The notes below the pieces were generated by a model. That model was not told the DNA's origin, made no database searches, and saw only the letters and a list, made by a program, of their open reading frames with translations. A stretch of DNA of 39,446 bases. Source: Chloroflexota bacterium. Lineage in GTDB: Bacteria > Chloroflexota > Anaerolineae > Anaerolineales > UBA4823. The DNA lies in NCBI GenBank assembly GCA_030611505.1, contig JAUWPO010000006.1:1-39446 (forward strand), read 5' to 3'. This document shows positions 331 to 19,796 of this stretch, piece after piece; the first letter of the stretch is position 1; each line of letters opens with the position of its first letter. The position numbers were made by a program, and so were the translations under genes.

Positions 331-1215
331 ATGCATCTATCAATGCACAACTGGATGAGGGCTGAGCCGATTGAAGTCACTGTGGCTCGCTTAGCAAAAT
401 ATGGTTATGAGAGTATCGAGATTAGCGGCGAACCTTACACCTACGATACGAAAGAAGTTCGCAAAATCCTCAATGAGCACGGCATCCGCTGCTGGGGCTC
501 TGTGACACTTATGCTGGAAGAACGCAACCTGGTAGCGAAGGATGAAGCTCAGCGAGCTGAGTCAGTCCAGTATGTCAAAGACTGCGTGACAATGGTCAAA
601 GAACTGGATGGTTATGAAATGACGATTGTACCGGCAACTGTTGGGAAGATTGCCGCCGATGGCACCCCTGAGGAAGAGTGGGAGTGGGCGGTTGACAGCA
701 TGAAGCAAATTTACGAATACGCGTTGAAAGAAGGTGTCAAGCTGGCGGTCGAACCGATCAACCGTTTTGAAACCTATTTCTGCTCACGCACAGCCCAGGC
801 CATAGCACTGGCGAAGGCGACCGGTCCAGAATGTGGTGTTTGTCTGGATGCGTTCCATCTAAATATCGAGGAAGTCGATCCATATGAATCTATCCTGTCA
901 GTGAAAGGCATGCTTGTCGATTTTCACGTTGCTGATACCAACCGCTTCGCCTGCGGTCAAGGTCACTGGGATTGGTTGAAATTAGTCGGAACGTTGAAGA
1001 CCATTGGTTATGATGGCGCATTGACTGTGGAATTTGTTGCTCCTGTTGACCGCACCCCGGCCAACCCGTATCCCGATGCGATTGAAACGAACCCAGTAGA
1101 TATTTCGCCTGAACAGAGGAAATTTATTGAGGAGCACGGTTCCAGCATGCTGACAGAAGAATTTTACAGTTGGCAGGTGAAGACATGTGCCGATACACTT
1201 CTACCGCTGATCTAA
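331..1215 (+). CDS. Sugar phosphate isomerase/epimerase-like TIM-barrel protein (AP-endonuclease-2 superfamily)
   Basis: A 294-residue protein of the xylose-isomerase-like TIM-barrel superfamily that includes D-tagatose/D-psicose 3-epimerases and inosose dehydratases. The four expected metal and substrate ligands are seen in order: Glu in AVEPINRFETYF, Asp/His in CLDAFHLN, His in DFHVADTNR and Glu in LTVEFV. The length is normal for the family. The start is fixed by a perfect AAGGAGG (319-325) upstream of the ATG. It is the first gene of a long co-directional cluster of sugar- or polyol-type enzymes, so it probably epimerises or isomerises a keto-sugar or sugar acid in that pathway. The exact substrate cannot be read from sequence, and a hydroxypyruvate-isomerase-like or dehydratase activity remains possible. 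Confidence 0.85.
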   Translation: MHLSMHNWMRAEPIEVTVARLAKYGYESIEISGEPYTYDTKEVRKILNEHGIRCWGSVTLMLEERNLVAKDEAQRAESVQYVKDCVTMVKELDGYEMTIVPATVGKIAADGTPEEEWEWAVDSMKQIYEYALKEGVKLAVEPINRFETYFCSRTAQAIALAKATGPECGVCLDAFHLNIEEVDPYESILSVKGMLVDFHVADTNRFACGQGHWDWLKLVGTLKTIGYDGALTVEFVAPVDRTPANPYPDAIETNPVDISPEQRKFIEEHGSSMLTEEFYSWQVKTCADTLLPLI

Positions 1216-1283
1216 CAGCAGACTAATAATACATATTGGGGCGGGGGATTCCCCGTTCCATACCAAAAATTAAACCTTCTCTT

Positions 1284-1310
1284 TTGACTTGTACCAGCAG
1301 TGGATATAAG
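1284..1310 (+). promoter_or_regulatory. Possible sigma-70-type promoter before the UPF0261 gene
   Basis: TTGACT (1284-1289) and TATAAG (1305-1310) are separated by 15 bp, shorter than the ideal 17, so this is weak. The 174-bp gap between the epimerase and UPF0261 genes is the longest inside the cluster. It also carries a short hairpin, CGGGG (1242-1246) / CCCCG (1251-1255), just after the epimerase stop. An internal promoter here is plausible. Confidence 0.3.
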
Positions 1311-1389
1311 AGCACGAGTGTTTCTTATCATGTCTGTTATCTGACCCCCGTTTGTGAAACCTGAAAAATCAAAGCCAGGAGGTTGTTAA

Positions 1390-2616
1390 ATGGGCAAAAA
1401 TGTAGTTGTCATAGGAACATTGGACACCAAAGGTCCCGAGATCGGTTATCTTCGTGATCAATTGATTGCGCTTGGACTAGATACGACTGTCATTGACTCC
1501 GGCATCCTGGGTGAACCAATTGACATTATGCCCGATATCACCCATGCTGAGGTTGCCGCATACGGCGATACGACCATCGAGGCACTGCAAAATGCAGGCA
1601 GCCGGGGCAAAGCCGTGGAAGGGATGCGGGCAGCTCTCAAGCTGCTTGTCCTCGAGCTCTACTCCAGTGGAAAACTGGATGCTATTGTCAGTATGGGGGG
1701 CGCTGAGGGGGCGGTCATGGGCGCTGCGACGATGATGCAGCTGCCAGTGGGTGTTCCAAAAGTATTGGTATCACCCATCGCATCTGGTAAACACTACTTT
1801 GATCCCCTAGTTGGGACAAGCGATATCATGGTCGTTCACTCCATCGTGGACATCCTGGGATTGAACCCCATCGCAACTACGGTTTTTGATAATGTCGCTG
1901 CGGCGATAAAAGGGTTGGTCGAATACGGGCACGAGCTTTCTGAACCCTCTCCAGATGATAAGTTTGTTGCTGTAACTATGCTTGGCAACACTACTAGAGC
2001 TGTTATGGTTCTTAAAGATCGACTAGCTGAGAGCGGATATGAAGCGGTGATCTTCCACTCAAATGGTGTGGGTGGACCTGCTATGGAACAGCTAGCGAAA
2101 GCTGGTCAGTTTGTAGGCGTGATCGACTTCACGACGAACGAAACCTATGACCCGATGACTGGTGGGATTCACGATGGCGGACCTGACCGCTTGAAGAGTG
2201 TTGGACTGCTGGGACTCCCTCAAGTTGTAGTGCCGGGGTGTATCGATTTTTGTGTGTTCCACGCAGGAGCGATTCCACCTGAACTCCAAGATCGACCAGT
2301 TTATGATCATAACCCTGAGTACACCCTTGTGCGCGCTTCAAAGGATGAAATGATCGCTTTGGGCCATCTTTTTGCTGAGCGACTCAATCCAGCCAATGGA
2401 CCTGTCATGATAGCCGTTCCGACCCAGGGATTGTCGATTCCGAATGTTCCCGGCGGTCCTTTCTGGAATCCCGAATCTGATGCAGCTTTCCTTGAAACTT
2501 TAAAGGAGAATATTAGGGAAGATATTCCTGTGTTATTGTTCGACGCTCATGTCAACGACCCTAATTTTGGAGAAACGGTTGCTGACTTGTTTATTAAAAT
2601 GATGATTAAGGAGTGA
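1390..2616 (+). CDS. Tm-1-like ATP-binding (UPF0261) family protein
   Basis: A 408-residue protein matching the Tm-1/UPF0261 family in length and layout. The N-terminal part begins with a Rossmann-like strand and turn (VVVIGTLDTKGPEIGYL), followed by the Ser/Gly-rich segment VSMGGAEGAVMGAATMMQLPVGVPK and the conserved block PIASGKHYFDPLVGTSDI. The C-terminal part has the HSNGVGGPAMEQL and GVIDFTTNE motifs of the fold related to PEP-utilising TIM barrels. The family includes the plant virus-resistance protein Tm-1, but bacterial members have no settled reaction; they usually sit in catabolic operons, as here. The start is set by AGGAGG (1378-1383) before the ATG. The stop lies 4 bp before the next start, with the next gene's SD overlapping this gene's end. 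Confidence 0.85.
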   Translation: MGKNVVVIGTLDTKGPEIGYLRDQLIALGLDTTVIDSGILGEPIDIMPDITHAEVAAYGDTTIEALQNAGSRGKAVEGMRAALKLLVLELYSSGKLDAIVSMGGAEGAVMGAATMMQLPVGVPKVLVSPIASGKHYFDPLVGTSDIMVVHSIVDILGLNPIATTVFDNVAAAIKGLVEYGHELSEPSPDDKFVAVTMLGNTTRAVMVLKDRLAESGYEAVIFHSNGVGGPAMEQLAKAGQFVGVIDFTTNETYDPMTGGIHDGGPDRLKSVGLLGLPQVVVPGCIDFCVFHAGAIPPELQDRPVYDHNPEYTLVRASKDEMIALGHLFAERLNPANGPVMIAVPTQGLSIPNVPGGPFWNPESDAAFLETLKENIREDIPVLLFDAHVNDPNFGETVADLFIKMMIKE

Positions 2617-2620
2617 AGAT

Positions 2621-3547
2621 ATGCTAACTGGAAATGATCGTGACTATAGGGATATCCCCCATATTACAGAAGGGGATGATGAGTTCCGGAGCAAGTTCCT
2701 TTCTTGGGAACTGGGCGACCTGACAATTGTTGATGTACGAAAATATCTCAAGGTTAAAGATACCATCTTGGTGCCGATGGCAAGTTTTGAGCAGCATGGA
2801 CCACATTTGCCAATTTTGACAGATACGGTCACAGCGATTGAGATTTCCTGCCGTGTATCTGAGATGATCGCAGTGCTGCACACTCCTCCAATCTGGATGG
2901 GCTATTCGCCGCAGCATATGCATAATCCGGGGATGGGCCGCGGTACGATAACCGTCCGCAGCAGCACACTACTCAACCTGGTCTATGATGTAGGTCGCAG
3001 TTTGATCCATCACGGGTTTAACCGTATTATCTTCATCAACGGTCATGGTTCTAACGTTAAGGTTATTGACCCTGTGCTGCGTAAGCTGCGCTATGATACC
3101 GGAGCGTTGATCAGCTTTGTCAAGCCCTACATGGAGAACTACGTAGGAATTCTGGATGGTTTGATGGAAAATCCCTGGGATGAGACACCGGGATGGCATG
3201 CCAGCGAACTCGAGACTTCTCAGGATCTTGCCTGGAATGAGAATTACGTCCGTATGGATCGGGCTGATTTCACAAAAGCTCATATACCCGAATTCTTGCC
3301 TAAAACTTTTGAGAAGAAGGATGGGTTGCCGGATGTAGAATTCGATGGATACAAGTACTTTACTTTCCCGATGGATCACCATGAATTCATCGAAAGCGGA
3401 GTGATCGGCAACCCGCTGCGATCCACAAAGGAAAAAGGAGAAGAGGCTTTCCGTCGCCTGTCTGAGCATGTCGCACGTGGTGTTCTGGAACTGACGACTG
3501 TACCAGTTGAGATTCACACACGCGAGTTTGTCGACCGTGTTCTTTGA
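2621..3547 (+). CDS. Creatininase-family metal-dependent amidohydrolase
   Basis: A 308-residue creatininase-family protein (creatinine amidohydrolase, FAPy deformylase ArfB, mycofactocin MftE). The binuclear metal site is visible: Glu and His in FEQHGPHLPILTD plus its final Asp, His in FINGHGSN, and the family HASELETS block with its Glu. Such enzymes open or hydrolyse cyclic or linear amides. It is about 50 residues longer than minimal members, mainly at the N-terminus and between the ETS block and the C-terminus. AGGAG at 2609-2613, inside the end of the upstream gene, provides the ribosome site, so expression is probably coupled. The context suggests hydrolysis of an amide or lactam-like intermediate in the same pathway; the substrate is unknown. 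Confidence 0.85.
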   Translation: MLTGNDRDYRDIPHITEGDDEFRSKFLSWELGDLTIVDVRKYLKVKDTILVPMASFEQHGPHLPILTDTVTAIEISCRVSEMIAVLHTPPIWMGYSPQHMHNPGMGRGTITVRSSTLLNLVYDVGRSLIHHGFNRIIFINGHGSNVKVIDPVLRKLRYDTGALISFVKPYMENYVGILDGLMENPWDETPGWHASELETSQDLAWNENYVRMDRADFTKAHIPEFLPKTFEKKDGLPDVEFDGYKYFTFPMDHHEFIESGVIGNPLRSTKEKGEEAFRRLSEHVARGVLELTTVPVEIHTREFVDRVL

Positions 3548-3549
3548 TA

Positions 3550-4575
3550 ATGAAAGTAATTCAAGCTGGGATCGGAAACATGGGGGAGGTCTGGATAGAC
3601 GCTGTCTTAGGGTCGACGGAGGTCGAATTCGCTGGCTTTGTGGAGATCAGCGACACAGTGATCCGCGCACAAATTGAGCGCTGTGATTTAGATCCAAGAT
3701 TGATCTTTAGATCTCTACCCGAGGCACTGGACACGGTGGAAGCCGATGCGGTACTACTTGTCACGCCGCCTGGGTTTCATAAAGAGATGTCCTTTGCTGC
3801 GCTGGAATCAGGCATTCCTGTTTTATGTGAAAAACCTCTGGGGGATAATTTGGAATCGGCTCGAGCTATTGTAGATAAATCTGATGAAACCGGTGTGCTG
3901 CACATGGTTGCCCAAAATTACCGTTATAAAGTCCCAGTTCAAACGGTTAAAATGGTGCTTGATTCTGGCGAAATGGGATGTGTTAGTTCAATTGAGGTGA
4001 TATTCTATAAAGGACCTCATTTGCTTGGTTTTCATCAAGAGCTGCCATATCCCCTGTTGGTCGATATGTCCATACACCACTTTGACTTAATGCGCTTTTT
4101 CTTGGGGAGCGAACCTGTGTCTTTATTTGCTAAGAGCTGGAACCCAACGTGGAGCTGGCACAAGGGGGAAGCATCTGCAAGTGCAATCCTGGAATTTGAA
4201 AACGATGTCCGCGCGACCTATACCGGTTCGTGGTGCTCTACTGGTTTGGAAACAACATGGATAGGGAATTGGCGGTTTGATTGCGAAAACGGCGTAATAT
4301 TATTACGGGATGATCAGGTATATATTCAACGCCGCACAAACGTGATTGAAGATAGCAGTGGTTATTATCATTATGCTGCCGAAGATGTAACTCAGGTTCC
4401 GCCTGCCAAGTTGGTACGTAAAGAACAGTCATATTTGCTGCACGAGTTTTATGAGGCGGTGACTCAGGGAAAGTCTCCTATTACAACCTGCCAGGACAAC
4501 ATTAAATCGTTTCGGATTGTTTCGGATTTGATTAGCTCTATAGAATCTCGCGAGGTTATTTACCCCGACAAATAA
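3550..4575 (+). CDS. Gfo/Idh/MocA-family NAD(P)-dependent oxidoreductase
   Basis: A 341-residue protein with an N-terminal Rossmann domain (MKVIQAGIGNMGEVW, GxGxxG-type), the mid-domain CEKPLG motif carrying the conserved lysine, and the C-terminal alpha/beta domain with the family DMSIHHFDLMRFFLG histidines. These enzymes oxidise or reduce sugars, inositols and related polyols with NAD(P). The ATG at 3550 lies 2 bp after the creatininase-family stop; an in-frame TTG at 3544 would add two residues and overlap that stop, but the ATG fits the usual N-terminus better. Tight spacing implies one transcript with the upstream genes. Substrate specificity cannot be read from the sequence. Confidence 0.88.
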   Translation: MKVIQAGIGNMGEVWIDAVLGSTEVEFAGFVEISDTVIRAQIERCDLDPRLIFRSLPEALDTVEADAVLLVTPPGFHKEMSFAALESGIPVLCEKPLGDNLESARAIVDKSDETGVLHMVAQNYRYKVPVQTVKMVLDSGEMGCVSSIEVIFYKGPHLLGFHQELPYPLLVDMSIHHFDLMRFFLGSEPVSLFAKSWNPTWSWHKGEASASAILEFENDVRATYTGSWCSTGLETTWIGNWRFDCENGVILLRDDQVYIQRRTNVIEDSSGYYHYAAEDVTQVPPAKLVRKEQSYLLHEFYEAVTQGKSPITTCQDNIKSFRIVSDLISSIESREVIYPDK

Positions 4576-4634: not shown

Positions 4635-5906
4635 TTGAATATTAATTTAGCCTACGGACGAAGTGGTCTTGCCATCACTCTACTTGAAAGACAAATTGAA
4701 GTGCTGGAACCGCAGTTCGTTAACGGATTGGCTGACGAACTTAGAGCAATCCAAGAAGCATTAAGGTCGCCCATCGGTACTGCACCGCTGGTCGAACTTG
4801 TTAAACCCGGTGATACAGTCGTTATTGTGCACACAGACATCACCCGCGCCACGCCCAATGACAGGATATTGCCGGTCATCCTGCATGAGCTGGAATCGGC
4901 TGGGATTTACCGGGGCGACATCTGTTTATTAAATGGTCTCGGAACACACCGTCCTCAAACACAAAACGAATTGCGCCTTATGCTCGGAGACCAAATCGTT
5001 GATAATTACCGTTGCATCCAACATGACTGCTTCGATGAAGCAAACCTCCTCTCACTGGACGGATCTCCACCTGGAAACTCGGTACGTATCAACCGGGCGT
5101 ATCTCGAAGCGGACGTGCGAATCTTGACCGGTTTCATCGAACCCCATTTCTTTGCTGGATTCAGTGGAGGTCCTAAAGCGATCGTACCATCGCTGGCTGG
5201 AGGGGAGTGCGTCTTTACTAACCACGGGTACGAGATGATTTCCCATCCCAATGCATCCTGGGGTATTACTGAAGGGAATCCTATCTGGGAAGAAATGCGT
5301 GATATTGCGCTCCGGACAAAGCCAACCTTTCTGGTCAACGTGGCGCTCAATGCCTCGCGCGAGATCAGCGGTGTATTCGCGGGCGAGATGCTGAAAGCCC
5401 ACGATCAAGGTTGTGCCTTCGTGAAGGAGACTGCAATGGTCAGGGTCGATGAACCATATGATATCGTGATTACGACCAACAGCGGTTATCCCCTCGACCA
5501 GAATCTTTACCAATCAGTAAAAGGTATGAGCGCTGCCTGCCAAATTGTCAGACAGGGCGGCGCAATTATCATTGCTGCGGCGTGTGAAGACGGTTTGCCC
5601 GATCATGGGTGTTACGCTGAATTGTTGCTCCAAGGAGGATCACCTCAAGGTGTTCTTGATATGGTCTCACAGCCCGGCTTTCGAGCCCAGGATCAATGGC
5701 AGGTTCAGATTCAAGCTCAAATTCAGCTTCACGCTCAGGTGTTAGTATACAGCGATGGTTTAACGGATGAACAAATCCGTGATGCGCTGCTTTTACCATG
5801 CGGGGATATTGAACAATCCGTAGAGAAACTGCGTGTTAATTACGGGTCGCAGGCGCGCATTTGTATACTTCCAGAAGGACCGCAGACGATACCTTATTTA
5901 AGATAA
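4635..5906 (+). CDS. LarA-like nickel-pincer 2-hydroxyacid racemase/epimerase
   Basis: A 423-residue protein of the lactate racemase (LarA, DUF2088) family. His105 (GTHR), His171 (EPHFFAGF), Lys181 (GGPKAI) and His197 (TNHGYE) each lie exactly three residues before the LarA catalytic and cofactor residues His108, His174, Lys184 and His200 known from Lactobacillus plantarum. The nickel-pincer nucleotide site therefore appears intact, with the cofactor-binding lysine at 181. It starts at TTG 4635, with AAAGGA (4624-4629) as ribosome site. Known LarA homologues racemise or epimerise various 2-hydroxy acids. The pincer cofactor needs LarB, LarC and LarE, which are not in this window and should be encoded elsewhere. 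Its role here may be to isomerise a sugar acid or the AOR product. Confidence 0.85.
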   Translation: MNINLAYGRSGLAITLLERQIEVLEPQFVNGLADELRAIQEALRSPIGTAPLVELVKPGDTVVIVHTDITRATPNDRILPVILHELESAGIYRGDICLLNGLGTHRPQTQNELRLMLGDQIVDNYRCIQHDCFDEANLLSLDGSPPGNSVRINRAYLEADVRILTGFIEPHFFAGFSGGPKAIVPSLAGGECVFTNHGYEMISHPNASWGITEGNPIWEEMRDIALRTKPTFLVNVALNASREISGVFAGEMLKAHDQGCAFVKETAMVRVDEPYDIVITTNSGYPLDQNLYQSVKGMSAACQIVRQGGAIIIAAACEDGLPDHGCYAELLLQGGSPQGVLDMVSQPGFRAQDQWQVQIQAQIQLHAQVLVYSDGLTDEQIRDALLLPCGDIEQSVEKLRVNYGSQARICILPEGPQTIPYLR

Positions 5907-5945: not shown

Positions 5946-6743
5946 ATGGATAGCAAGACCTACCGAATAAAAGAGTTCTTCAATCCAGCCGATCAGCGCA
6001 GCCTGATCGTAGATACCAGCGCATGTCTGTCGCTTGGACCGCTGCCGGGGCTCGAGAGTTTCAAGCAAGCCGTGAAACCTATTCTACATCTTGTTGACGG
6101 GGTTGTCACAAGCCCTGGGCAGGAACAGGTCCTATCAGGACGAACGCATCAAGACGCTGCCCTTCTTGTGAGAGCAGATTGGACAAATGCTCTGCGTGGG
6201 CCAGAATTTGTACTTCCTCCTGAAAAGGTCAAACATATAACCCTCATGAGCGCTTCCCAGGCGCTTGAAATCGGCGCCAGCGCGCTTGTCCTCTATTTCC
6301 TGCTTGGGCATGAAGAACAAATTGAAGCCGGATGCTTGAAATGGACGGTCCAGCTTGCGATTGAGGGCAGTCAGATAGGGCTGCCGCTCATCATTGATGT
6401 GCAACCTATCGGTGAAAGGGTTGTCCTTCAAAGTAAGGCGGTTGAACTGGGCGCATCTTATGGACTCGAAGGAGGCGCTGACGGTATTGCAGTTCCCTGG
6501 CCTGGGGTTGAATCCTTTAAAATAATAATAAAAATGAGTGCAGGAATGCCTATCTGGGTAAAACCAAGGACATTAGAAAATGTGCAAAATGAAATAGGGG
6601 AGGCGCTTCAACTGGGCGCGGCAGGGTTGTGGCTTAACGAAAAAGTGTTCGCACATCCAGATGCAGCCGGGAGGATCGAATCCCTCATTTCCCTTATCCA
6701 CCCTTCATTTGCCGTCAAAGAAGGACCACAGGAGAGCCTGTGA
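5946..6743 (+). CDS. Aldolase-fold protein lacking the Schiff-base lysine (pseudo-aldolase, DhnA/LacD type)
   Basis: A 265-residue homologue of the class I aldolase in the next gene; both share SPGQ, VRADW, the ALE-G-A strand and FLLG/FLG blocks at equivalent positions. The residues for Schiff-base chemistry are changed: where the active paralogue has GADALKIPYTG, this protein has GADGIAVPWPG, so Ala182 replaces the lysine and Trp the following Tyr, and the N-terminal DHG is DTS. It is probably catalytically inactive as a lysine aldolase and may be a structural or regulatory partner of the paralogue, or may have a different activity. The ATG at 5946 is preferred because of AGGAG at 5936-5940; a TTG at 5922 is the upstream alternative. 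It overlaps the next gene by one base (TGATG). Confidence 0.8.
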   Translation: MDSKTYRIKEFFNPADQRSLIVDTSACLSLGPLPGLESFKQAVKPILHLVDGVVTSPGQEQVLSGRTHQDAALLVRADWTNALRGPEFVLPPEKVKHITLMSASQALEIGASALVLYFLLGHEEQIEAGCLKWTVQLAIEGSQIGLPLIIDVQPIGERVVLQSKAVELGASYGLEGGADGIAVPWPGVESFKIIIKMSAGMPIWVKPRTLENVQNEIGEALQLGAAGLWLNEKVFAHPDAAGRIESLISLIHPSFAVKEGPQESL

Positions 6744-8035
6744 TGGGATCAGGATTACAGTCCAGAATGGACAGATTGTTCAACCGGCATGGGGACGGGC
6801 GCGCCGTGTGTGTGGCCGCTGATCACGGTTACATGAGCGACGTGACTACCAATGTGGTTAATTTGCGCACGATCCTTGATCAGGTTATTCGGGGCGGAGT
6901 GGATGGCGTTTTGCTCAGCCCAGGTCAGGCAGTGCGCCTCGCTCCTCAATTTCAAGGTCGTGATGGACCGGCGATGATTGTGCGAGCCGATTGGATGAAC
7001 ATGCCCCGTTTAGGCACCTCGAACGTCGCCAACGCTGTTCCCCAACGCCTGCTCGTCCACCAAAAGGTCATCACCGCCGCTCAGGCTTTGGAGTTAGGTG
7101 CAACTGCAATAACCATTTACCTTTTCTTGGGTTACAACGACAGCATCGAAGCTGCTGGTATCGATATCTGTGCATGCTTCGCAGCCGAGTGTCGTCAGGT
7201 TGGTTTGCCGTGTATCATGGAACCGCTCGCTTATGGCGGGCAGGTAACGGGCGCCAATATTGTTGAAATCCTGACCCTTGGCGCCCGTATGTGTGTTGAG
7301 CTTGGCGCAGATGCATTGAAAATTCCCTACACAGGCGATGTGAAATCATTCAGGCGATTGGTGGAAATGGCGGATGTGCCGGTGTTGGTGTTGGGAGGTG
7401 CCCGTTCTGAATATGAAAGGGATGCCTTAGAGCTCTTTAACGAGGGTTTGGAAGCCGGCGGGAGTGGTTGCCTGATGGGACGAAATGTCACAAAGTCACC
7501 CAACCCGGGGCGGATGATTGAGCAGCTTTGTGACATCGCTCATAACGGCTTGTCAGTTGATATTGCGTTGCGTACCGAAGAGTGGGATTTTATAAGGTTG
7601 AAAGCCCATCCAGCTAATTGCACTGGCTGCGATCTGTGTGTTACCGCATGTGTAGCCAGTCACGACAGGGGTTTATATGGTACACACCTCGCCAGGCTAT
7701 CTATCACCCCCGCGTCCCAATCCGGTATCCATAAAGTGATGTTCTGCACGCTATGCAAGAAATGCATTGATACCTGCCCTACTGATGCGCTGCGATGGCA
7801 TACGCAGACGGGCGCTGTGGAATTGCTGGTCGATAATTGCACCGCATGCGGAGACTGCGTGGATGTGTGTCCCACCGGCGTGATATTTCACAGCGCCAGC
7901 GGTATTCACACATCTACTGGAGAGTATTTGGACTGGTATCCGATAATATGCGATTTGTGCGCTGGCGAGCCGGAGTGTGCCCGTGTTTGTCCGACCGGTG
8001 CGATCTTCATCGCTGAGCGGGTGGAGTTGACATGA
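6743..8035 (+). CDS. Class I aldolase fused to a polyferredoxin domain
   Basis: A 430-residue fusion. Residues 1 to about 270 form a DhnA/archaeal-type class I aldolase: AADHGYM near the N-terminus, SPGQ, VRADW, the Schiff-base lysine Lys193 in GADALKIPYTGD, and the phosphate-binding VLVLGGAR and GSGCLMGRN loops. Residues 293 to 430 carry four cysteine motifs of [4Fe-4S] ferredoxin type (CTGCDLCVTAC, CTLCKKCIDTC, CTACGDCVDVC, and CDLC...ECARVCPTG), like the electron-transfer subunits that accompany AOR-family enzymes. No stop or frameshift separates the halves. The ATG at 6743 has CAGGAGA (6729-6735) upstream; a GTG at 6740 is possible. It overlaps the AOR gene by 4 bp, so this protein is very likely the electron acceptor of AOR and possibly the source of its aldehyde. 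Confidence 0.9.
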   Translation: MGSGLQSRMDRLFNRHGDGRAVCVAADHGYMSDVTTNVVNLRTILDQVIRGGVDGVLLSPGQAVRLAPQFQGRDGPAMIVRADWMNMPRLGTSNVANAVPQRLLVHQKVITAAQALELGATAITIYLFLGYNDSIEAAGIDICACFAAECRQVGLPCIMEPLAYGGQVTGANIVEILTLGARMCVELGADALKIPYTGDVKSFRRLVEMADVPVLVLGGARSEYERDALELFNEGLEAGGSGCLMGRNVTKSPNPGRMIEQLCDIAHNGLSVDIALRTEEWDFIRLKAHPANCTGCDLCVTACVASHDRGLYGTHLARLSITPASQSGIHKVMFCTLCKKCIDTCPTDALRWHTQTGAVELLVDNCTACGDCVDVCPTGVIFHSASGIHTSTGEYLDWYPIICDLCAGEPECARVCPTGAIFIAERVELT

Positions 8036-9852
8036 TGAAACTCCAGGATCGATCATATTGCGATCAGATTCTACGTGTGGATTTAACGAGCGGGAAGTTT
8101 GAAGTAACCCCGCTTCCAGGTGATGCCATGCCTTTAATTTTGGGTGGTAAAGGATTGGGCGCCTGGCTATTATTGAACGAACAATCCCCCGGCGTTGAAC
8201 CACTTTCACCCGACAACCGCATTATCTTCCACAACGGTCCTCTAACGGGCACCAGCGCGCCAACAGCAGGTCGTTTTGGATGCACGACTCGCAGCCCAGC
8301 CACAGGGACATACTGCGATTCGTACTGCGGCGGTTATTGGGGGAGTACCCTTAAGTATGCCGGTTACGACGCCCTCGTATTATCCGGTAAGGCGAACATG
8401 CCAGTGCTATTAGTGATTGATAACGAGCGGGTAGAACTCCGGGATGCCGCTCATCTGCTGGGTTTGAGCGTTACGAAGACAACTGAGACTCTGAGGGAGG
8501 AGTTCGGACTCGACTGGCAGTCGCTCGTCATCGGACCGCCAGGTGAAAAGCAGCGCAATATAGCAGGTATATTCAACGATACCCGTGCTCTCGCACGCGG
8601 TGGTGTGGGCGCTGTAATGGGGTCAAAGAACCTCAAAGCGATCGTCGCTCGTGGAACTGGGTATGTGCGTGTCTATGATCCGGAGGGGTATCAGCGCGCT
8701 TTGCAGCTTGCGTTCCGTGCAGTTCGCATGTCGAGTGAAACAACACTGCTCAGCCGCGAGGGCACAGCCAATATACTGGATATCATCAATGTAATGGGAG
8801 CACTTCCCACCCGCAATTTCCAGAGTGGTCAATTCGAATACGCCGCTTCACTGTCTGGTTCAGCGTTCGCCGAGAATCATTGGGTGAAAGATTACGCTTG
8901 CTTCGGCTGTCCCATCGCGTGCGGTAAATATACACGCCCGCTGGAAGATGGAAAATTCATAGAAGGTCCGGAATACGAGACCATCTTTGCATTTGGACCA
9001 AACTGTGCCATCGGCGAGCGACAGACGGTCATCCATTTAAACTGGTTGTGTGATGAGTATGGTTTGGATACGATCAGCGCGGGTGGCGTTGTAGGGTTTG
9101 TGATGGAGCTTTTTGAGCGCGGGATTCTCCGCGCTGCTGACCTCGATGGTATCGAACCGCGCTTCGGTGATTCCGGCGCGGCATTAGCACTGGTTGAAAA
9201 AATGGCAAAGGTCGAAGGATGCGGGAGTTGGTTGGCTCAAGGTGTGGCTGCCATCGCCGAACAGTATCCCGAAGCACAGGCATTTGCTATGCATGTCAAG
9301 GGGCTCGAAATGCCCGCCTATCATCCAAATGCAGCCAAGGGTACCGCCCTGGCGTACGCCGTATCAGAACGGGGAGCCTGTCATCTGAGGGGGGCACCGC
9401 TGGGTGAATTGTTCAGCGGTTCAGCAGATCCGCTTTCTATCGGTGGGAAGGCGCAGCTATTTCGCGATCACCAGGCTGACAAGGCGGTCTGGGACAGCGC
9501 TTGCCTGTGCTGCTTCCCTGGCTATGGGATGAAACTCAAAGAATTGTGGCAGCTTGTCACCGCCGCGACCGGGTTTGATTATCCCACCGTCGCTGACCTG
9601 GAGCTGGTTGGTGAGCGCATATCTACCCTTGCGCGTGTTTTCAACGTGCGTGCAGGCTTTGTGCGCCAGCACGATACCCTCCCAGCCCGTAATTTAGAAC
9701 AACCGCTGAAAGGTGGACCCGCTGATGGACACGTTGTTGAACTCACTCCGATGCTAGATGAATATTACACCATCATGGGATGGGATGATAATGGCATCCC
9801 TACCGGGGGATGTTTGAACAGGCTAAATCTCTCAGAAGCGCTTGATCTCTGA
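8032..9852 (+). CDS. Aldehyde ferredoxin oxidoreductase (tungsten/molybdenum bis-pterin family)
   Basis: A 606-residue AOR-family enzyme, the usual family length. It shows the N-terminal pterin-binding glycines (GGKGLGAWLL, TGRFGCTTRSPATG), GPPGEKQ, and the [4Fe-4S] ligands Cys290, Cys293 and Cys297 (ACFGCPIAC) with the fourth in the DSACLCC segment (491-494), matching the Pyrococcus AOR spacing; Asp488 fits the conserved Asp. AORs oxidise aldehydes to carboxylates and reduce ferredoxin in the cytoplasm of anaerobes. The ATG overlaps the upstream stop (ATGA), so synthesis is coupled to the aldolase-ferredoxin fusion, its probable redox partner. The aldehyde substrate is unknown; it may be the retro-aldol product of the neighbour. 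Confidence 0.93.
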   Translation: MMKLQDRSYCDQILRVDLTSGKFEVTPLPGDAMPLILGGKGLGAWLLLNEQSPGVEPLSPDNRIIFHNGPLTGTSAPTAGRFGCTTRSPATGTYCDSYCGGYWGSTLKYAGYDALVLSGKANMPVLLVIDNERVELRDAAHLLGLSVTKTTETLREEFGLDWQSLVIGPPGEKQRNIAGIFNDTRALARGGVGAVMGSKNLKAIVARGTGYVRVYDPEGYQRALQLAFRAVRMSSETTLLSREGTANILDIINVMGALPTRNFQSGQFEYAASLSGSAFAENHWVKDYACFGCPIACGKYTRPLEDGKFIEGPEYETIFAFGPNCAIGERQTVIHLNWLCDEYGLDTISAGGVVGFVMELFERGILRAADLDGIEPRFGDSGAALALVEKMAKVEGCGSWLAQGVAAIAEQYPEAQAFAMHVKGLEMPAYHPNAAKGTALAYAVSERGACHLRGAPLGELFSGSADPLSIGGKAQLFRDHQADKAVWDSACLCCFPGYGMKLKELWQLVTAATGFDYPTVADLELVGERISTLARVFNVRAGFVRQHDTLPARNLEQPLKGGPADGHVVELTPMLDEYYTIMGWDDNGIPTGGCLNRLNLSEALDL

Positions 9853-9855: not shown

Positions 9856-10599
9856 ATGGCAGCCGACCAGACAATCTTCTTCTTAATGGCTGCGGTCGTG
9901 GCGTTCCTGATCGGTCTTTCTAAAGGCGGATTGGGCGGTATGCTGGGAGCGTTGGCAGTTCCGATGATGGCGCTCGTGATGCCCGCTCGCGAAGTGATTG
10001 GTCTGGTGCTGCCCCTTCTGATGTTTGCCGACATTTTTGCAGTAGCCCTGCACTGGAAGCGTTGGGACAGACGGCTGGTTTTGCTGCTAATTCCCGGTGC
10101 AGTTGTGGGCGTCACAATCGGAACCTTGTTCATCACAAACGCTCCTATAGGAGCCCTGCGCACATTCCTGGGCATAATTGTGCTCTCGTTTACGGTTTTT
10201 AAGCTGTTAGAGGACCGCATCCTCGCTGCCTTGAAATATGAAGGGCGCAGTTGGCATGGACTTTTAGCTGGTTCGGTCACGGGGTTCTCGTCTGCGCTGG
10301 CTCATACTGGTGGACCGCCAGTCAGCATATACCTTCTTCTGCAAGATGTTACCCCGCCTATCTTCATCGCCACCTCAGCTTTATTCTTCATGATCCTCAA
10401 CTGGATCAAAGTGCCCTATTACTGGTATGCCCAACTATTTGACTTTCAGAAATTAGCTCAACTCGTCTGGATTCTGCCGTTGATCCCTTTAGGCGTTTTG
10501 ACCGGCAGGTGGATGGGTGATCGAGTGAGCAAGAAGACCTTTGAACGAATTATCGTGAGTTTGTTGGGAATAGCCGGAATTCTATTGGTGCTCACTTAA
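9856..10599 (+). CDS. TauE/SafE (TSUP) family membrane anion exporter
   Basis: A 247-residue, almost entirely hydrophobic protein with about eight membrane segments and the TSUP hallmarks: N-terminal FLIGLSKGGLGGMLGALAVPMM and the internal repeat SGFSSALAHTGGPPVSIYLLLQD. TSUP members export sulfite, sulfolactate, sulfoacetate and other organic anions, and often close sulfonate-catabolic operons. The ATG lies 3 bp after the AOR stop, so it is probably the last gene of the catabolic transcript. This hints that an anionic (possibly sulfonated) product leaves the cell, but the cargo is not proven by sequence. Confidence 0.88.
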   Translation: MAADQTIFFLMAAVVAFLIGLSKGGLGGMLGALAVPMMALVMPAREVIGLVLPLLMFADIFAVALHWKRWDRRLVLLLIPGAVVGVTIGTLFITNAPIGALRTFLGIIVLSFTVFKLLEDRILAALKYEGRSWHGLLAGSVTGFSSALAHTGGPPVSIYLLLQDVTPPIFIATSALFFMILNWIKVPYYWYAQLFDFQKLAQLVWILPLIPLGVLTGRWMGDRVSKKTFERIIVSLLGIAGILLVLT

Positions 10600-13619: not shown

Positions 13620-14108
13620 TTAGACGAATATAACCTGACCGCCTTCAGACAGCTCCAGGAATTCCATAGCGCCTAATACCACAGCCCCATCCACAAGATC
13701 ATCCTGGGTTAACTTCATCATATCCATTGACATTTTGCAGCCGTAAACATGGGCGCCAGCATCAATGATCATTTCTACAAATTCACCAATCGGCGGGAAG
13801 TCAAGCTTGTCGATTTCACGACGCATCATCCAGGTGGCAGCCGCTGACATACCCGGTATTGCACCTAAAAATGTGGGTATATGAAACCAGGGATGCATAC
13901 TTGGATTGCCCACAGTCGCCACATTGAGGCTGTTCAGCTTGCTCTTTGTGATTATATCTAATCCCCAAAACGTGAAGAACATGTGAGCTTCAATTCCGCT
14001 CATGCGGGCTGCGTTGCCTAGAATGAGTCCCGGATAAGCCATATCTAATGAGCCTTTTGAAGAGATGATGCTCAATTTACGAGTGTCGTTTTGATCGTTG
14101 TCTGTCAT
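13620..14108 (-). CDS. DsrE2-like sulfur-relay protein (DsrE/DsrF/DrsH family)
   Basis: A 162-residue protein with the DsrE2 pattern: N-terminal strand LSIISSKGSLDMAYPGLILGNAA, the FFTFWGLDII block, GNPSMHP, and a single conserved cysteine, Cys124, in YGCKMSMDMM. Family members carry persulfide sulfur between partners such as rhodanese, TusA, DsrE and DsrC. Several hydrophobic stretches occur, but none is a clear membrane span. The start at 14108 is chosen because AGGAG precedes it by about 9 nt on the minus strand; a longer frame to 14201 would overlap the upstream dsrC-like gene. It is the last gene of the sulfur operon and ends just before the bidirectional terminator. Confidence 0.88.
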   Translation of the reverse strand: MTDNDQNDTRKLSIISSKGSLDMAYPGLILGNAARMSGIEAHMFFTFWGLDIITKSKLNSLNVATVGNPSMHPWFHIPTFLGAIPGMSAAATWMMRREIDKLDFPPIGEFVEMIIDAGAHVYGCKMSMDMMKLTQDDLVDGAVVLGAMEFLELSEGGQVIFV

Positions 14109-14139
14109 TGTTCTTTTCTCCTTTATTGAATGATTATGA

Positions 14140-14457
14140 TCATATGCAGCCAGTCGGTTTACCCAAACCGGCAATTCTTGACGCGTTTTTTGCTGGACCA
14201 CCTGGGAACAGTTGGTAAATTTCTTTAGTGTTTACATCAGTTCTTTTAGTGATCCTGCGAAGTGTTGGTGGTTCATCATTTTCTTCGAATTCTTTACGGG
14301 CAAAATTAATTACAACCCAATGACGGTCTGTTAATTGGATTCCCTGGTCGTCAGCGATCGCTTCTGCAATCTCGGGAGTCCACGCATTGGGATCCACCAT
14401 AAAACCATCATCGTCGAATTCAACTGTTTCTAGAATTATTTCTGTTTGAGTAGACAT
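14140..14457 (-). CDS. DsrC/TusE-family sulfur-carrier protein with one C-terminal cysteine
   Basis: A 105-residue DsrC/TusE family protein. It has the family helix-turn segments (GFMVDPNAWTPEIAEAIA, LTDRHWVVINFARKEF) and the flexible C-terminal arm ending in GKPTGCI, with the penultimate cysteine (CysA, Cys104). The second arm cysteine of dissimilatory DsrC, normally 11 residues earlier, is Ser93 here (KNASRIAGL). It is therefore a one-cysteine, TusE-like carrier that can hold a persulfide but cannot make the intramolecular trisulfide of true DsrC. SD-like AGGAG lies upstream on the minus strand (about 14464-14468). The neighbours (SQR-like, DUF1641, DsrE2-like) support delivery of sulfane sulfur from sulfide oxidation. 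Confidence 0.92.
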   Translation of the reverse strand: MSTQTEIILETVEFDDDGFMVDPNAWTPEIAEAIADDQGIQLTDRHWVVINFARKEFEENDEPPTLRRITKRTDVNTKEIYQLFPGGPAKNASRIAGLGKPTGCI

Positions 14458-14512
14458 GTTTTTCTCCTAATTAATTTGTTGTTTGTACAAATCCTTATTT
14501 ATTTTTTTGAAT

Positions 14513-15268
14513 TCAGTTCTCTGACACACTGGGTTGGTCGGCAAGGACTTTCACCATGTTGATCAATCTGGCCATTCCCTTTCGAACTTTCGGGTCCGAG
14601 AGATCTTTCATCAATGCCCACATTGAGACATCCTCATCGCTGATGTCTTGATCCTGAAATGCCTCAAGTGCGTTTTTTGTGAGAGACATGATCTCCGGTT
14701 GAGTTAGACTGCGAACTGTGGTTAATATCGCAATCACGTTATCACCGAGAGCTTGAACATCATCTTCGCTGAATTCTGTCACAATACGCTCAACAATTCG
14801 CCATCCCTGGCGGGCAAATGCGAAGTATCCTTCACGTTCCATAGAATCTAAGCTGATTACAGCCTGGTTGAATACCTGATCTGTGATACGTTTCGTCTCA
14901 TCGAATAAATCAACTGTTGATTCCAAACGATCCAGAAGTCCCACGAGCATATGTGTATCGCGCAAAAGACGCTTTACAAGAAAGAGTAGATCTTCGGATT
15001 GAAACTCTGTGCCAATTTCTGCCAATTCATCAATAGACAGTTTCACCATATGATTTGCGATGGGGATCAAATCGCGTTTGAGTTCATCCATCTCGTCCTG
15101 ATGTTGGCATAGGATTTCAAACTGTTGGGTAAGGTAATCAAGTTTAGCTATTACTGCATGAGAACCATTACCATTTACCTCAAGTTCTTCCAGGCGTTGG
15201 TTTTGCATCTCAACATGACTGGTCAGAAGATCAATTTTTTGATGTAGAAGAGCTAGTTCATCGTCCAT
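14513..15268 (-). CDS. DUF1641 domain protein
   Basis: A 251-residue, strongly helical, acidic protein. The first 60 residues are heptad-rich (LALLHQKIDLLTSHVEMQNQ), likely a coiled coil. The remainder has the DUF1641 features: repeated Asp/Leu-rich helices and a C-terminal segment with the D-P-[KE]-V-[RK]-K-G-M/L motif (SDPKVRKGMARLI). DUF1641 proteins have no assigned reaction but commonly neighbour sulfide:quinone oxidoreductases and formate dehydrogenases, as here. The gene starts 9 bp after the flavoprotein stop, so the two are co-transcribed. A scaffold or membrane-recruitment role for the flavoprotein is an inference. Confidence 0.82.
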   Translation of the reverse strand: MDDELALLHQKIDLLTSHVEMQNQRLEELEVNGNGSHAVIAKLDYLTQQFEILCQHQDEMDELKRDLIPIANHMVKLSIDELAEIGTEFQSEDLLFLVKRLLRDTHMLVGLLDRLESTVDLFDETKRITDQVFNQAVISLDSMEREGYFAFARQGWRIVERIVTEFSEDDVQALGDNVIAILTTVRSLTQPEIMSLTKNALEAFQDQDISDEDVSMWALMKDLSDPKVRKGMARLINMVKVLADQPSVSEN

Positions 15269-15277
15269 GTCCAGTTC

Positions 15278-16510
15278 CTATGCCCATTTGCCTGCCATGC
15301 TCATCTGCGATTCAAAAGGCATATCCTCGCCTTTGAGCATCATATTCCAGTAAATCCAGCGGAACATCATTTTCCCCCAGTGGTTAACGGCTGATTCCTT
15401 CAACAAGGAGAAAGGACCAAACCCTGGGAGCGGATATTTTCCGGGAAGTGGTTCTACATCGTAGTTGAAGTCGATCAAGATGCCTTTCTCAAATCCCGAT
15501 ACGATGAAGCAGTTTGCATGACCATCGAATTTAGGGAGGGGTTCCAACCCTTCCATGTGTCGCAGCATATTATCAACCAGAACGTCCAGCATGAAGTGAG
15601 CAACAGAACCGGCTTTGGAAGTAGGGGTGTTGCCGGCGTCTCCAATAATCCAGACGTTTTCCCATTTAGGAGATTGCAAGGTATGCTTGTCAGTGGGGAT
15701 AAAGTTGAGTTCATCCCCCATGTCGGATCGATCAATAACCTCAGCGCCCATATTTGTCGGGATCGTTACTAAGAGGTCATAGTCAATCTCGCGTTCGTCA
15801 TATGAGCGAATCGCCTGGTTTGTCGTGTCAACTTCCATAATGTTGAAATCAGATTCCAGGAGGATACCCTTTTCTTCGAGCAAATTTCCTAAAATCCCTG
15901 ATGCCCGTGGCTTCGTAAATGCACCAGCTAACGGAGTGGTAAATACGATTTCGACATCATCGCGCATGCTTCTTTCGTGGAAGAACCAGTCAGCGAGAAA
16001 GATGAATTCCAGGGGAGCAACCGGGCATTTGATCGGCATCTCTGTGATGTTGAGTACCATTCTTCCGCCTTTCCAGAACTTCAAGAAGCGGCTGAGAGCA
16101 ATTGCACCTTCCACCGTATAGAAATCGAAAATGTTCTTTCGCCATGCACCGTCCATGAGTCCTGGAGTCTCTTCGGGATGGATATGGCTTCCTGTCGCGA
16201 TGACCAGGTAGTCGTAATTAATGACTTTCTTTTCGTACCTTAATTGAACCCGGTTTTGATCTGGTTCGATGATCTCGATATCAGAAAAAAATACTTCTAC
16301 CTGCGGTGGGAGGAAATTGCGTTTTGGTTTGACTACGTCGCTGGGAGAATATATACCAAACGGGATAAATAGAAAGCCCGGTTGGTAATAATGCGATTCA
16401 TCCCGGTCGACGATGATTATTCGCCATTCCTGGAGGTCCAGCAAGTGAGCCATTTTAGTGGCAACCATCGTGCCACCAGTCCCGGCTCCTAGGATTAATA
16501 ATGTTTTCAC
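15278..16510 (-). CDS. Sulfide:quinone oxidoreductase-like FAD-dependent oxidoreductase
   Basis: A 410-residue flavoprotein. It has the N-terminal FAD-binding Rossmann motif (LLILGAGTGGTMVATKMA), the YDYLVIATGS strand before the NAD(P)-like domain, and the C-terminal FAD motif VWIIGDAGN. Only two cysteines occur, in IKCPVAPLE and HANCFIVSG; the first is at the position of a redox cysteine of SQR-type enzymes. SQRs oxidise sulfide to sulfane sulfur and reduce membrane quinone from the cytoplasmic face; the C-terminal Trp-rich part (RWIYWNMMLKG) could be amphipathic. GTG at 16510 is chosen because AAGGAGA lies just upstream on the minus strand; the open frame upstream overlaps arsR. With a single likely catalytic cysteine it may belong to a divergent SQR type. 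Confidence 0.85.
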   Translation of the reverse strand: MKTLLILGAGTGGTMVATKMAHLLDLQEWRIIIVDRDESHYYQPGFLFIPFGIYSPSDVVKPKRNFLPPQVEVFFSDIEIIEPDQNRVQLRYEKKVINYDYLVIATGSHIHPEETPGLMDGAWRKNIFDFYTVEGAIALSRFLKFWKGGRMVLNITEMPIKCPVAPLEFIFLADWFFHERSMRDDVEIVFTTPLAGAFTKPRASGILGNLLEEKGILLESDFNIMEVDTTNQAIRSYDEREIDYDLLVTIPTNMGAEVIDRSDMGDELNFIPTDKHTLQSPKWENVWIIGDAGNTPTSKAGSVAHFMLDVLVDNMLRHMEGLEPLPKFDGHANCFIVSGFEKGILIDFNYDVEPLPGKYPLPGFGPFSLLKESAVNHWGKMMFRWIYWNMMLKGEDMPFESQMSMAGKWA

Positions 16511-16538
16511 TAGTATCTCTCCTTCTAAATTGGTTAGG

Positions 16539-16910
16539 TTAGTTAGAAAATGACTCACTTGCGGAATTCGCAAGATCGGCCTGGCTTTTCAACTTGTCTG
16601 CTAATACTGCTCTAAGCAGATCTAGAGCCTGGATAATTCGTTGGTCTTGAAGCATATAAACGACCGATTTTCCAGCGCGGTTTGCAGAGACAATACCGCG
16701 CTCACGTAAAATTGTCAGATGACGAGAAGCCGCTGGTTGGCTGATATCGATCTCATTTGCGATCTGGCTTACATTGCGAGATTGTTCTGATAGGGCGTAT
16801 ATGATCAAGATTCGCCGTGGATCAGCTAATCCAGAGCAAATCTCGGCATGTAACCTGGTTACTTCTTGGGAAAGCTTTGGTGAGATCATTATATCGAACC
16901 TATCAACCAT
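16539..16910 (-). CDS. ArsR/SmtB-family transcriptional regulator
   Basis: A 123-residue winged-helix regulator. It has the ArsR recognition helix (ISQPAASRHLTILRERGIV) and wing (GKSVVYML). It heads the sulfur operon and probably represses it. There is only one cysteine (Cys25, in HAEICSGLADPRR), so it cannot use the two-cysteine polysulfide switch of SqrR/BigR and must sense its signal otherwise. The start at 16910 has no clear SD; an internal ATG at 16889 (ISPKLSQEV) is the alternative. Palindromes just upstream are candidate operators. Confidence 0.87.
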   Translation of the reverse strand: MVDRFDIMISPKLSQEVTRLHAEICSGLADPRRILIIYALSEQSRNVSQIANEIDISQPAASRHLTILRERGIVSANRAGKSVVYMLQDQRIIQALDLLRAVLADKLKSQADLANSASESFSN

Positions 16911-18029: not shown

Positions 18030-19796
18030 ATGTATAGAACTCAATACTGTGGTGAATTACGCAGTACTCATATTGGACAAAGGGTGATGTTGGCTGGTTG
18101 GGTCCATCGCCGTCGCGACCATGGTGGTTTGACATTCATAGACCTGCGGGATCGTTATGGGATTGTCCAAATCGTGACAAACCCTGTTGGTTCTCCCCAG
18201 GCACACCAAATATTGGATCCTGTACGTTTAGAATGGGTTATCCAGGTAGAGGGAATTGTGCGTCCAAGGCTGGAAGGTAAGGAAAACCCAAATTTATCGA
18301 CAGGTGAAATTGAGGTAGAAGTATTAGAGGTAAAAATACTCAATCCGGCCAAACCAACACCGTTTTCTATCAACGGACAGGATGAGGCGGATGAACAAAC
18401 CCGTCTCCGCTATCGCTACCTCGATTTACGGCGAGCGCGAATGAGGAATAATCTGGAATTAAGGCATAAGGTTGTCAAATTTATACGCGATTATTTGAGT
18501 GAGCGCGATTTCCTCGAAATTGAGACCCCGATTTTATTTAAATCGACTCCGGAGGGAGCGCGTGACTATTTAGTCCCCTCGCGCCAGCATCCAGGTGATT
18601 TCTACGCCTTACCGCAGTCTCCTCAACAGTTGAAGCAGCTTCTTATGGTGGCGGGAACCGATCGTTATTTTCAGATTGCACGCTGTTTCCGTGACGAGGA
18701 CCAGCGTGGAGATCGACAGCCAGAATTCACACAATTAGACCTTGAAATGTCCTTTGTCGAGCGTGAAGATATTATGAAACTCACGGAGGATTTATTTACA
18801 GAACTGGTCGCAGAGGTCGTTCCGCATAAGCGATTATTAGCGAGTCCCTGGCCTAGATTGACCTATCAAGAAGCGCTGGAACGATTTGGCAAAGATAACC
18901 CGGATCTTCGTTTTGGCATGGAGCTAAAAGATATAACGGATATCGTGCCTGGTATCGGGCTCAAAATTTTTGAAACCGTCGTAACTGCAGGAGGATATGT
19001 ACGCTGTATCAATGCTCAAGGTTTAGGGGACTATAGCCGAAAACAGATTGATGAATTGAACGAATTTGTAATAGGACATGGAGCAAAGGGTCTTGCCTAT
19101 TTGGCAATAACCTCCGAAGGTGAGCAGCGCTCCTCTTTTGCTAAATATATCTCACCGGAAAATGTTGAAATCATCATGGCACGTCTGGAAGCAAACCCTG
19201 GAGATTTATTATTATTTGTTGCTGATCAGCCAGCCGTCGTGAATGAAGCATTGGGTTTTTTGAGGGTATCCCTGGCAGATAGGTTGGGATTAATTGATCC
19301 GGACGTGCTGGCATTTTGCTGGGTGATAGATTTTCCATTCGTTATCTGGAATTCGGAAGAACAAAGATGGGATCCCAGTCACCATTTATTTACCGCTCCT
19401 ATGCCCGAGGATATCCCGCTGGTCGAGATCGATCCTGGTAAAGCACGCGGTCAACAGTACGATATGGTTCTTAATGGTCATGAAGTCGGCGGAGGTTCGA
19501 TCCGTATATATGATCGTCAACTGCAGGAGAAGGTTTTCGAATTGATCGGTTTGGACCAGGAGACAGCGCACCATCGATTTGGTCATATGCTGGAAGCGTT
19601 TGAATATGGGACCCCTCCACATGGTGGAATAGCCCCTGGCATTGATCGTCTTTGCATGATCCTGGCGGATGAGCCCAATATTCGTGAAGTGATCGCATTT
19701 CCAAAGAACCAGCATGCGCGCGATGTGATGGCAGACGCACCTTCGCCGGTTGATCCATACCAGTTGATAGATCTGCATATCAAGCTTGATTTATAA
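18030..19796 (+). CDS. aspS: Aspartate--tRNA ligase
   Basis: A 588-residue bacterial-type AspRS, the standard length. It has the N-terminal OB anticodon domain (residues 1-105; [19 protein letters not shown]), class II motif 2 ([21 protein letters not shown]), the bacterial GAD insert (about 280-420), and motif 3 ([13 protein letters not shown]). It charges tRNA-Asp in the cytoplasm. The ATG at 18030 has GGAG about 9 nt upstream (TTTGGAGATATTAT). It is followed 16 bp later by asnS. Presence of a real AsnRS next door suggests, but does not prove, that this AspRS need not mischarge tRNA-Asn. Confidence 0.97.

Follow-up and report, generated by a model that had tools for sequence, protein, structure and literature searches.

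A class I aldolase fused to an AorA/WorS-like iron-sulfur domain, encoded between a degenerate aldolase paralogue and a predicted tungsten aldehyde oxidoreductase in Anaerolineae

Introduction

The closest described systems to the locus reported here are tungsten oxidoreductases (WORs) and aldolases of the DhnA family. According to the 2026 classification, the large subunit WorL together with a four-cluster small subunit WorS, without WorN or WorABC, makes a class II WOR (PMC13328260). In the class II enzymes PfASOR/WOR5 and CbGOR, an AOR-family WorL with its own cluster is accompanied by an adjacent four-cluster small subunit. AorABC of Aromatoleum aromaticum (8c0z) is of class III; the first two clusters of its small subunit AorA connect to the tungsten subunit, and the C-terminal helix of AorA is needed for the formation of filaments (PMC10413684). 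On the aldolase side, MJ0400 ADH synthase, Thermoproteus tenax FBP aldolase (TtFBPA) and E. coli LsrF have one fold, in which the Schiff-base Lys, the general base Asp and the phosphate ligands are located (PMC2728841, PMC4162585); enzymes of the DhnA family assemble as decamers, each built of two pentamers (PMC2728841). Literature searches limited to open-licence papers found no aldolase-WOR fusion, and the main text of the 2026 classification, which covers 4,064 WorL sequences, makes no mention of an aldolase (PMC13328260).

Architecture of the fusion gene

The window, namely the whole stretch of DNA that was analysed, is 39,446 nucleotides in length and makes up a complete contig (C120); the draft genome it belongs to has 2.3 Mb. 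Its genes between 331 and 13496 are all on the + strand, with intergenic gaps of at most 174 bp. The features discussed below are as follows.

331–4575, +: ketose-epimerase-like TIM barrel, UPF0261, creatininase family and Gfo/Idh/MocA dehydrogenase (Pfam/NCBIfam)
4635–5906, +: LarA, nickel-dependent lactate (2-hydroxyacid) racemase (NF033504)
5946–6743, +: AldB, degenerate DhnA-type aldolase paralogue, apparent pseudo-aldolase (NF005556, MJ0400, profile match)
6743–8035, +: aldolase-WorS fusion, 430 aa (single ORF; architecture repeated in 13 other loci)
6743–7576, +: class I (DhnA/archaeal type) aldolase domain, residues 1–278 (PF01791, NF005556, AF2, Foldseek)
6821–6829, +: Asp27-His28-Gly29, predicted general base and phosphate-binding His (invariant)
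7319–7321, +: Lys193 codon, predicted Schiff-base lysine (aligned with MJ0400 Lys184; invariant in all fusions)
7577–7618, +: inter-domain linker, residues 279–292 (equal length in 13/13 aligned fusions)
7619–8023, +: WorS/AorA-like domain with four [4Fe-4S] motifs, residues 293–427 (8c0z_C, 6x6u_B, Cys conservation)
8032–9852, +: predicted tungsten aldehyde oxidoreductase large subunit, AOR/WorL (PF02730 and PF01314; PfAOR 1aor)
9856–10599, +: TauE/SafE-family exporter, directly downstream of AOR (PF01925, 5.9e-31)

The sequence-only reading of this DNA had proposed an in-frame fusion of an aldolase and an Fe-S protein, and the gene agrees with it: the frame is uninterrupted from the ATG at 6743 to the TGA at 8033–8035, and both halves have domain matches. 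The start of the fusion shares 1 bp with the gene before it (TGATG, 6741–6745), and its stop overlaps the AOR start by 4 bp (8032–8035), as that reading had also stated. The four Fe-S motifs that it had placed from Cys293 onwards were located at C293–303, C335–345, C366–376 and C403–416. They are of CxxCxxCxxxC type and contain 16 Cys, 15 of which are invariant in 13 homologues; the remaining one, C369, is replaced in L035 only.

The Fe-S domain and the tungsten enzyme

In phmmer searches against the PDB, residues 286–422 of the fusion matched the AorA small subunit of the Aromatoleum AOR (8c0z_C, 7e-16 to 1.2e-15), with an alignment that covers all four clusters, and the fused domain also matched the WOR5 small subunit (6x6u_B, 4e-12 to 7.4e-12). 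With the fused domain as query, a methanogen polyferredoxin gave a lower whole-sequence E-value than AorA, because several weak repeats add up. On the PDB matches, the generic polyferredoxin carrier was dropped in favour of a WorS/AorA-type subunit. The C-terminal domain of the fusion is thus classified, by homology, as a relative of AorA/WorS, the small subunit of class II–IV WORs, so that the aldolase would be tied to the AOR's own subunit. The earlier proposal of a lyase tied to an electron carrier therefore holds for the covalent fusion, whereas the carrier is not a free polyferredoxin but an AOR small subunit; electron flow from AOR to the fused Fe-S domain, also proposed there, is expected from the AorA/WorS homology. 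With the fusion as query, no other WorS-like ferredoxin was found in the window's draft genome, which has five other AOR-family matches.

The AOR gene downstream codes for both AFOR domains (PF02730, 2.6e-71; PF01314, 1.8e-126) and matches PfAOR (1aor) with 2.5e-135. When aligned to 1aor, its [4Fe-4S] ligands Cys290, Cys293, Cys297 and Cys493 are invariant in eight homologues. As judged by PDB similarity, without a clade tree, the protein is nearest to PfAOR/AaAOR-type enzymes. Pfam searches detected no WorN/AorC, no WorABC and no flavin-NAD or bifurcation subunit in the gene string.

By its gene content, the window's enzyme corresponds to a class II WOR (WorLS), with tungstopterin and a ferredoxin acceptor as predicted features. 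Like PfASOR/WOR5 and CbGOR, it combines an AOR-family WorL that has its own cluster with an adjacent four-cluster small subunit, and WorN and WorABC were not seen. Different from them, its WorS carries a fused aldolase and is preceded by a pseudo-aldolase gene; compared to WOR5, the large subunit is more like PfAOR/AaAOR. In the comparison with AorABC, the fused domain aligns with AorA and the AOR with AorB, but there is no AorC/WorN gene and the N-terminus is occupied by the aldolase. The extra C-terminal helix that builds the AorA filament is also lacking: the fusion ends 14 residues past its last Cys, whereas AorA (192 aa) runs ∼26 residues beyond the aligned part. Nanowires formed by that route are therefore not expected, and a class III nanowire AOR was ruled out by the missing WorN and C-terminal helix.

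The aldolase domain

The aldolase domain matches PF01791 over residues 22–250 (6e-23; 82.1 bits, cut-off 23.8) and NF005556 over residues 3–279 (2.7e-48). Its nearest solved structure is MJ0400 (6.5e-30). In the AF2 model of the fusion, built from a 13-sequence alignment, the barrel is confident, with aldolase pLDDT mostly above 80, and the WorS part is of low confidence. The best Foldseek matches of the barrel are 2qjg (TMt 0.83), LsrF and TtFBPA, which identify it as a (β/α)8 barrel. Neither the ADH synthase equivalog TIGR01949 (133.6, cut-off 299) nor the archaeal FBP aldolase model NF040816 (126.6, cut-off 430) was reached.

Like MJ0400, TtFBPA and LsrF, the domain has the Schiff-base Lys, the Asp base and the phosphate-binding His/Gly/Gly-Arg. 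Lys193, Asp27, His28, Gly218, Gly219, Gly246 and Arg247, the last four belonging to the GG and GRN phosphate loops, are invariant in the fusions; the roles of Asp27 and His28 are taken from MJ0400 Asp33 and LsrF Asp57/His (PMC4162585, PMC2728841). With these residues intact, the fused aldolase looks alive, in line with the sequence-only reading, which had called it active-looking from Lys193.

Different from the three characterized enzymes, the proton-donor Tyr and a neighbouring Arg are replaced here, an RADWMNMPRLGTSN loop is inserted, and the barrel is fused to WorS with a dead-looking paralogue alongside. The RxDWxN core of the inserted loop is common to the fused aldolase, AldB and the stand-alone sister aldolases. 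The proton-donor Tyr of TtFBPA/MJ0400 is Leu/Ile162 in the fusions, so the cleavage chemistry is not certain; this Tyr is not universal in the family, since LsrF likewise has none. The Arg of TtFBPA, MJ0400 and the stand-alone sisters is Tyr164 in the fusions (Val in L035). Given the loss of this Arg in the alignment, the aldehyde released would probably be unphosphorylated.

The degenerate paralogue AldB

The longest ORF of AldB begins with TTG at 5922, and the homologues begin at an ATG equivalent to 5946. AldB has no Pfam assignment; it matches NF005556 (5.5e-21) and MJ0400 (1e-13), and hhalign aligned it to the fused aldolase across the whole barrel with 99.9% probability. Its AF2 model has a mean pLDDT of 45. 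In all 13 AldB copies compared, Ala, Val, Ile or Ser takes the place of the Schiff-base Lys, Ser replaces the Asp of the DHG motif, and neither the GGxR nor the GRN phosphate loop is kept. The RxDWxN motif remains as in the fused aldolase, and two AldB copies have RAGWTN. AldB is under purifying selection (dN/dS 0.06–0.28 where dS is usable), the topology of its tree follows the tree of the fusions, and strong AldB matches occur in fusion-bearing genomes only. Judged from the substituted residues, AldB is apparently inactive in catalysis.

Conservation of the triplet across Anaerolineae

The earlier suggestion to look for the same fusion in AOR-linked clusters was borne out. A scan of 84,980 species genomes with short peptide patterns, which picks up close relatives only, found 13 further fusion loci (54–78% identity), all in Anaerolineae (Chloroflexota) MAGs of different studies; every fusion-bearing genome is a MAG. 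Domain order and linker length are identical in all 13 fusions that can be aligned across the linker, including the most divergent one, L035; in L033, the contig ends after the first Fe-S motif has begun. Sampling with an alignment profile found the fusion in three of 396 genomes of the class, the window's included, and the next best match after the fusions was an aldolase alone (1e-62). Among 400 sampled genomes of the phylum, the same type of profile detected no fusion besides the window's. The plasmid search gave aldolase-only matches and no fusion, and repeat and promoter scans showed nothing notable.

For pairs with usable dS, pairwise dN/dS is about 0.02–0.13 in the aldolase domain and about 0.05–0.20 in the Fe-S domain; the short linker is under weaker constraint than the domains. 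A frameshift or assembly artefact was ruled out by the 13 loci of independent MAGs with equal linker length. With 14 independent loci and low dN/dS, both chance and a frameshift artefact fail as explanation.

The fixed partnership with AOR that had been proposed is also seen: among the 14 fusion loci, AOR lies directly downstream in all 13 whose contig extends far enough. AldB lies directly upstream in 13 of the 14, the exception being L024, which has a run of N there. On this gene order, the conserved unit is the triplet of AldB, the aldolase-WorS fusion and AOR, of which AldB had gone unrecognized as an aldolase in the sequence-only reading. In L031, L032 and L034, the triplet occurs without recognizable sugar genes in the flanks examined, which makes it the minimal unit.

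Several loci are irregular. At L048:8626–9066 (G056:C65), a 146-aa ORF combines part of AOR with the first residues of the fused aldolase, which are 57% identical; it is a decayed triplet remnant or a misassembly. The AOR gene after the L035 fusion (L035:10281–12208) spans two frames, owing to a frameshift or an assembly error. In L024 (8500–10284), the run of N obscures AldB and connects the fusion with an N-terminal fragment that is unrelated to it; 3 kb further upstream there is part of another AOR (L024:5306–6262).

Gene neighbourhood

LarA and TauE flank the triplet in five loci, namely the window, L023, L025, L026 and L027. The window's LarA reached 499.6 bits with NF033504, above the lactate-racemase cut-off of 460. 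L023 keeps three of the four upstream genes at 331–4575 with 82–85% identity and additionally has a GlcD-like 2-hydroxyacid oxidase upstream. In L028, L029 and L033, a class II aldolase and a kinase already adjoin the triplet, so the fused aldolase looks redundant there for the first cleavage. Since the pathway neighbours vary by locus and no sugar genes were recognized near the triplet in L031, L032 and L034, the substrate is not fixed by context.

Other features of these regions were recorded. UPF0261 (Tm-1-like) occurs upstream of LarA in the window (1390–2616), together with the creatininase-family and ketose-epimerase-like genes (331–3547); in L027 (6231–8288), it follows TauE and is paired with a PEP-hydrolase-like gene (PF09370). 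In the window, the gene after TauE codes for a P-type ATPase. A − strand string at 13620–16910 contains a DsrE2-like gene, DUF1641, an FAD/NAD oxidoreductase (Pyr_redox_2) and an ArsR-type regulator; it resembles a sulfide/sulfane-sulfur operon and is near the TauE gene. Further along are two tandem class II (D/K/N) aminoacyl-tRNA synthetase genes with overlapping ends (18030–21156; 588 and 456 aa), a 460-aa ORF without Pfam match (22646–24028) that overlaps the start of FtsZ (23980–25260), and, at 26032–31809, a 1925-aa protein largely of TPR repeats, which is directly followed by a 943-aa protein with weak TPR matches.

Unfused relatives and other AOR-aldolase pairings

The nearest stand-alone aldolases, L081–L084, are 37% identical, and no AOR reached the search threshold in their genomes. 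Most unfused relatives have a sugar kinase nearby: FGGY in L081, PfkB in L083, and kinases also near L110 and L111. In Rubrobacter L108 and L109 (two plasmids), the unfused aldolase adjoins FGGY kinases; in L111, a distant unfused relative, it adjoins a cupin-type PGI and a PfkB kinase. Sugar genes beside the stand-alone aldolase of L081 have counterparts beside the triplet: its class II aldolase is matched in L029 and L033 and its FGGY kinase in L029, with 59–71% identity, which indicates that the same sugar module goes with both the fused and the stand-alone aldolase. Among the matches listed for 38 aldolase-bearing genomes, AOR is located less than 3 kb away in one, at ∼7 kb in one and at ∼12 kb in three; by this rarity, AOR linkage as a general trait of DhnA aldolases was ruled out.

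Two other pairings were found. In L036 (G059:C201), an aldolase, a Zn-ADH-like gene, a ferredoxin, an AOR and an FGGY kinase are separate genes. Like the fusion loci, L036 encodes a DhnA aldolase, a four-cluster ferredoxin and an AOR in a single cluster of co-directional genes, which includes an FGGY kinase; however, L036 is unfused and has no AldB, its AOR is 39% identical, and its aldolase sits on a different tree branch. The sequence-only reading had named separate genes in relatives as the finding that would speak against a fusion: all close relatives are fused, whereas the distant, AOR-linked L036 has its aldolase and ferredoxin apart. The second pairing is in the window's own genome (L112:468–5906, G000:C99), where the genes that come after a second AOR (43% identity), on the same strand, encode a PF00596 (fuculose/rhamnulose-type) aldolase, a cytidylyltransferase-like protein, an NAD epimerase and an FGGY kinase. 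This PF00596 aldolase is unrelated to the fused one. That AOR is here independently paired with an aldolase for sugar phosphates gives the strongest support to the view that aldol cleavage feeds AOR.

Proposed function and alternatives

With moderate confidence, we propose that the triplet is an aldolase-WOR complex, in which a ketose-1-phosphate would be cleaved into DHAP and an aldehyde, and the aldehyde oxidized with reduction of ferredoxin. AldB, the fusion and AOR would form one heteromeric enzyme, with AldB co-assembled with the live aldolase barrels. Lys193 would form a Schiff base with the phosphorylated ketose, and cleavage would yield DHAP and the aldehyde, which the neighbouring AOR would oxidize to a carboxylic acid; the two electrons would pass via AOR's own cluster and then the four fused clusters to soluble ferredoxin. 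Complex formation by AOR, the fusion (via WorS) and AldB as co-subunit is quite likely, and aldol cleavage feeding AOR is fairly probable; true channelling of the aldehyde is somewhat less likely than not. Since a LarA racemase is encoded next to the triplet, lactaldehyde heads the list of candidates, but its identity as the aldehyde is tentative and on the unlikely side; LarA, TauE and the GlcD-like oxidase of L023 fit a conversion of lactaldehyde to lactate. The decamers of two pentamers in the DhnA family offer an obvious place for AldB. A decamer-type core of live and dead barrels may be imagined, in which the WorS arm of each live subunit docks one AOR, the aldehyde is never released and the electrons leave through the polypeptide that made it; this arrangement is unlikely.

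In a glycolytic role, the aldolase would cleave fructose-1,6-bisphosphate and the WOR would then use ferredoxin to oxidize glyceraldehyde-3-phosphate, with 3-phosphoglycerate as product; this is the function of CbGOR, a WorLS enzyme of class II (PMC13328260). The top structural match is the complex of ADH synthase with F1,6P (Foldseek), the distant L111 lies beside a cupin-type PGI and a PfkB kinase, and L031, L032 and L034 carry the triplet without a dedicated sugar operon. However, the Arg of TtFBPA, MJ0400 and the stand-alone sisters is exchanged in all fusions, the NF040816 score is far below its cut-off, and the AOR is nearest to PfAOR/AaAOR-type enzymes. Of five fusion genomes that were searched, four, among them the window's, also have a normal GAPDH, and the fifth is 80% complete. 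A sole route of GAP oxidation was thus ruled out, and a role of the GAPOR type would come on top of GAPDH without being essential. We consider the glycolytic role improbable.

The aldolase domain and AldB could instead serve as a non-cleaving oligomeric scaffold or aldehyde clamp for AOR, with the aldehyde supplied by another aldolase. AldB looks dead, the proton-donor Tyr is lost in the fusion, L028, L029 and L033 have a class II aldolase next to the triplet, and the decamers formed by DhnA-family barrels (PMC2728841) would suit such a role. Yet a scaffold has no need of Lys193, Asp27, His28 and both phosphate loops, which are invariant in 13 fusions with identities as low as 55%, and AldB in the same operon shows how relaxation looks. 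There is only a small chance, in our view, that the barrel merely holds the complex together.

A sulfosugar pathway, in which sulfofructose-1-phosphate gives DHAP and sulfolactaldehyde, the WOR makes sulfolactate and TauE exports it, is very improbable. SFP aldolases are known from class I as well as from class II (PMC12890257), five loci have TauE/SafE after AOR, and YihT is among the more distant Foldseek matches; the isomerase of L028 matches the sulfoquinovose isomerase model SftI alone. All these links are weak, however: the isomerase scored 75, far under the cut-off of 700, the TauE family is broad, the surroundings of the triplet showed neither a sulfoquinovosidase nor another sulfosugar marker, and action of LarA on sulfolactate would be new. 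In a reverse reaction, reduced ferredoxin would let the WOR turn a carboxylic acid into the aldehyde, which the aldolase would then trap by condensation with DHAP. Aldol condensation is thermodynamically favoured, and tethering would suit an aldehyde that is toxic and scarce. AORs are able to reduce acids (PMC9295118). However, acid reduction requires a very low potential, and kinases, isomerases and LacI regulators encoded near the triplet or near its relatives point to catabolism; we consider this direction highly unlikely.

Significance

Taken together, an aldolase in the small subunit of an AOR and a degenerate copy beside it suggest one machine that releases a reactive aldehyde and then oxidizes it on the spot. 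For most clades of tungsten oxidoreductases, the physiological substrate is not known. With aldol cleavage attached to the AOR's own subunit, the search for the substrate would be narrowed to aldehydes derived from ketose-1-phosphates, and the fused cleavage step makes a direct enzyme test possible. The triplet would also be a naturally occurring example of a lyase covalently joined to a redox enzyme, together with a conserved, apparently dead paralogue whose role in assembly is testable. If the decamer-core arrangement were true, the triplet would represent a previously undescribed class of tungsten complexes made of several enzymes, in which a pseudo-enzyme has a structural role.
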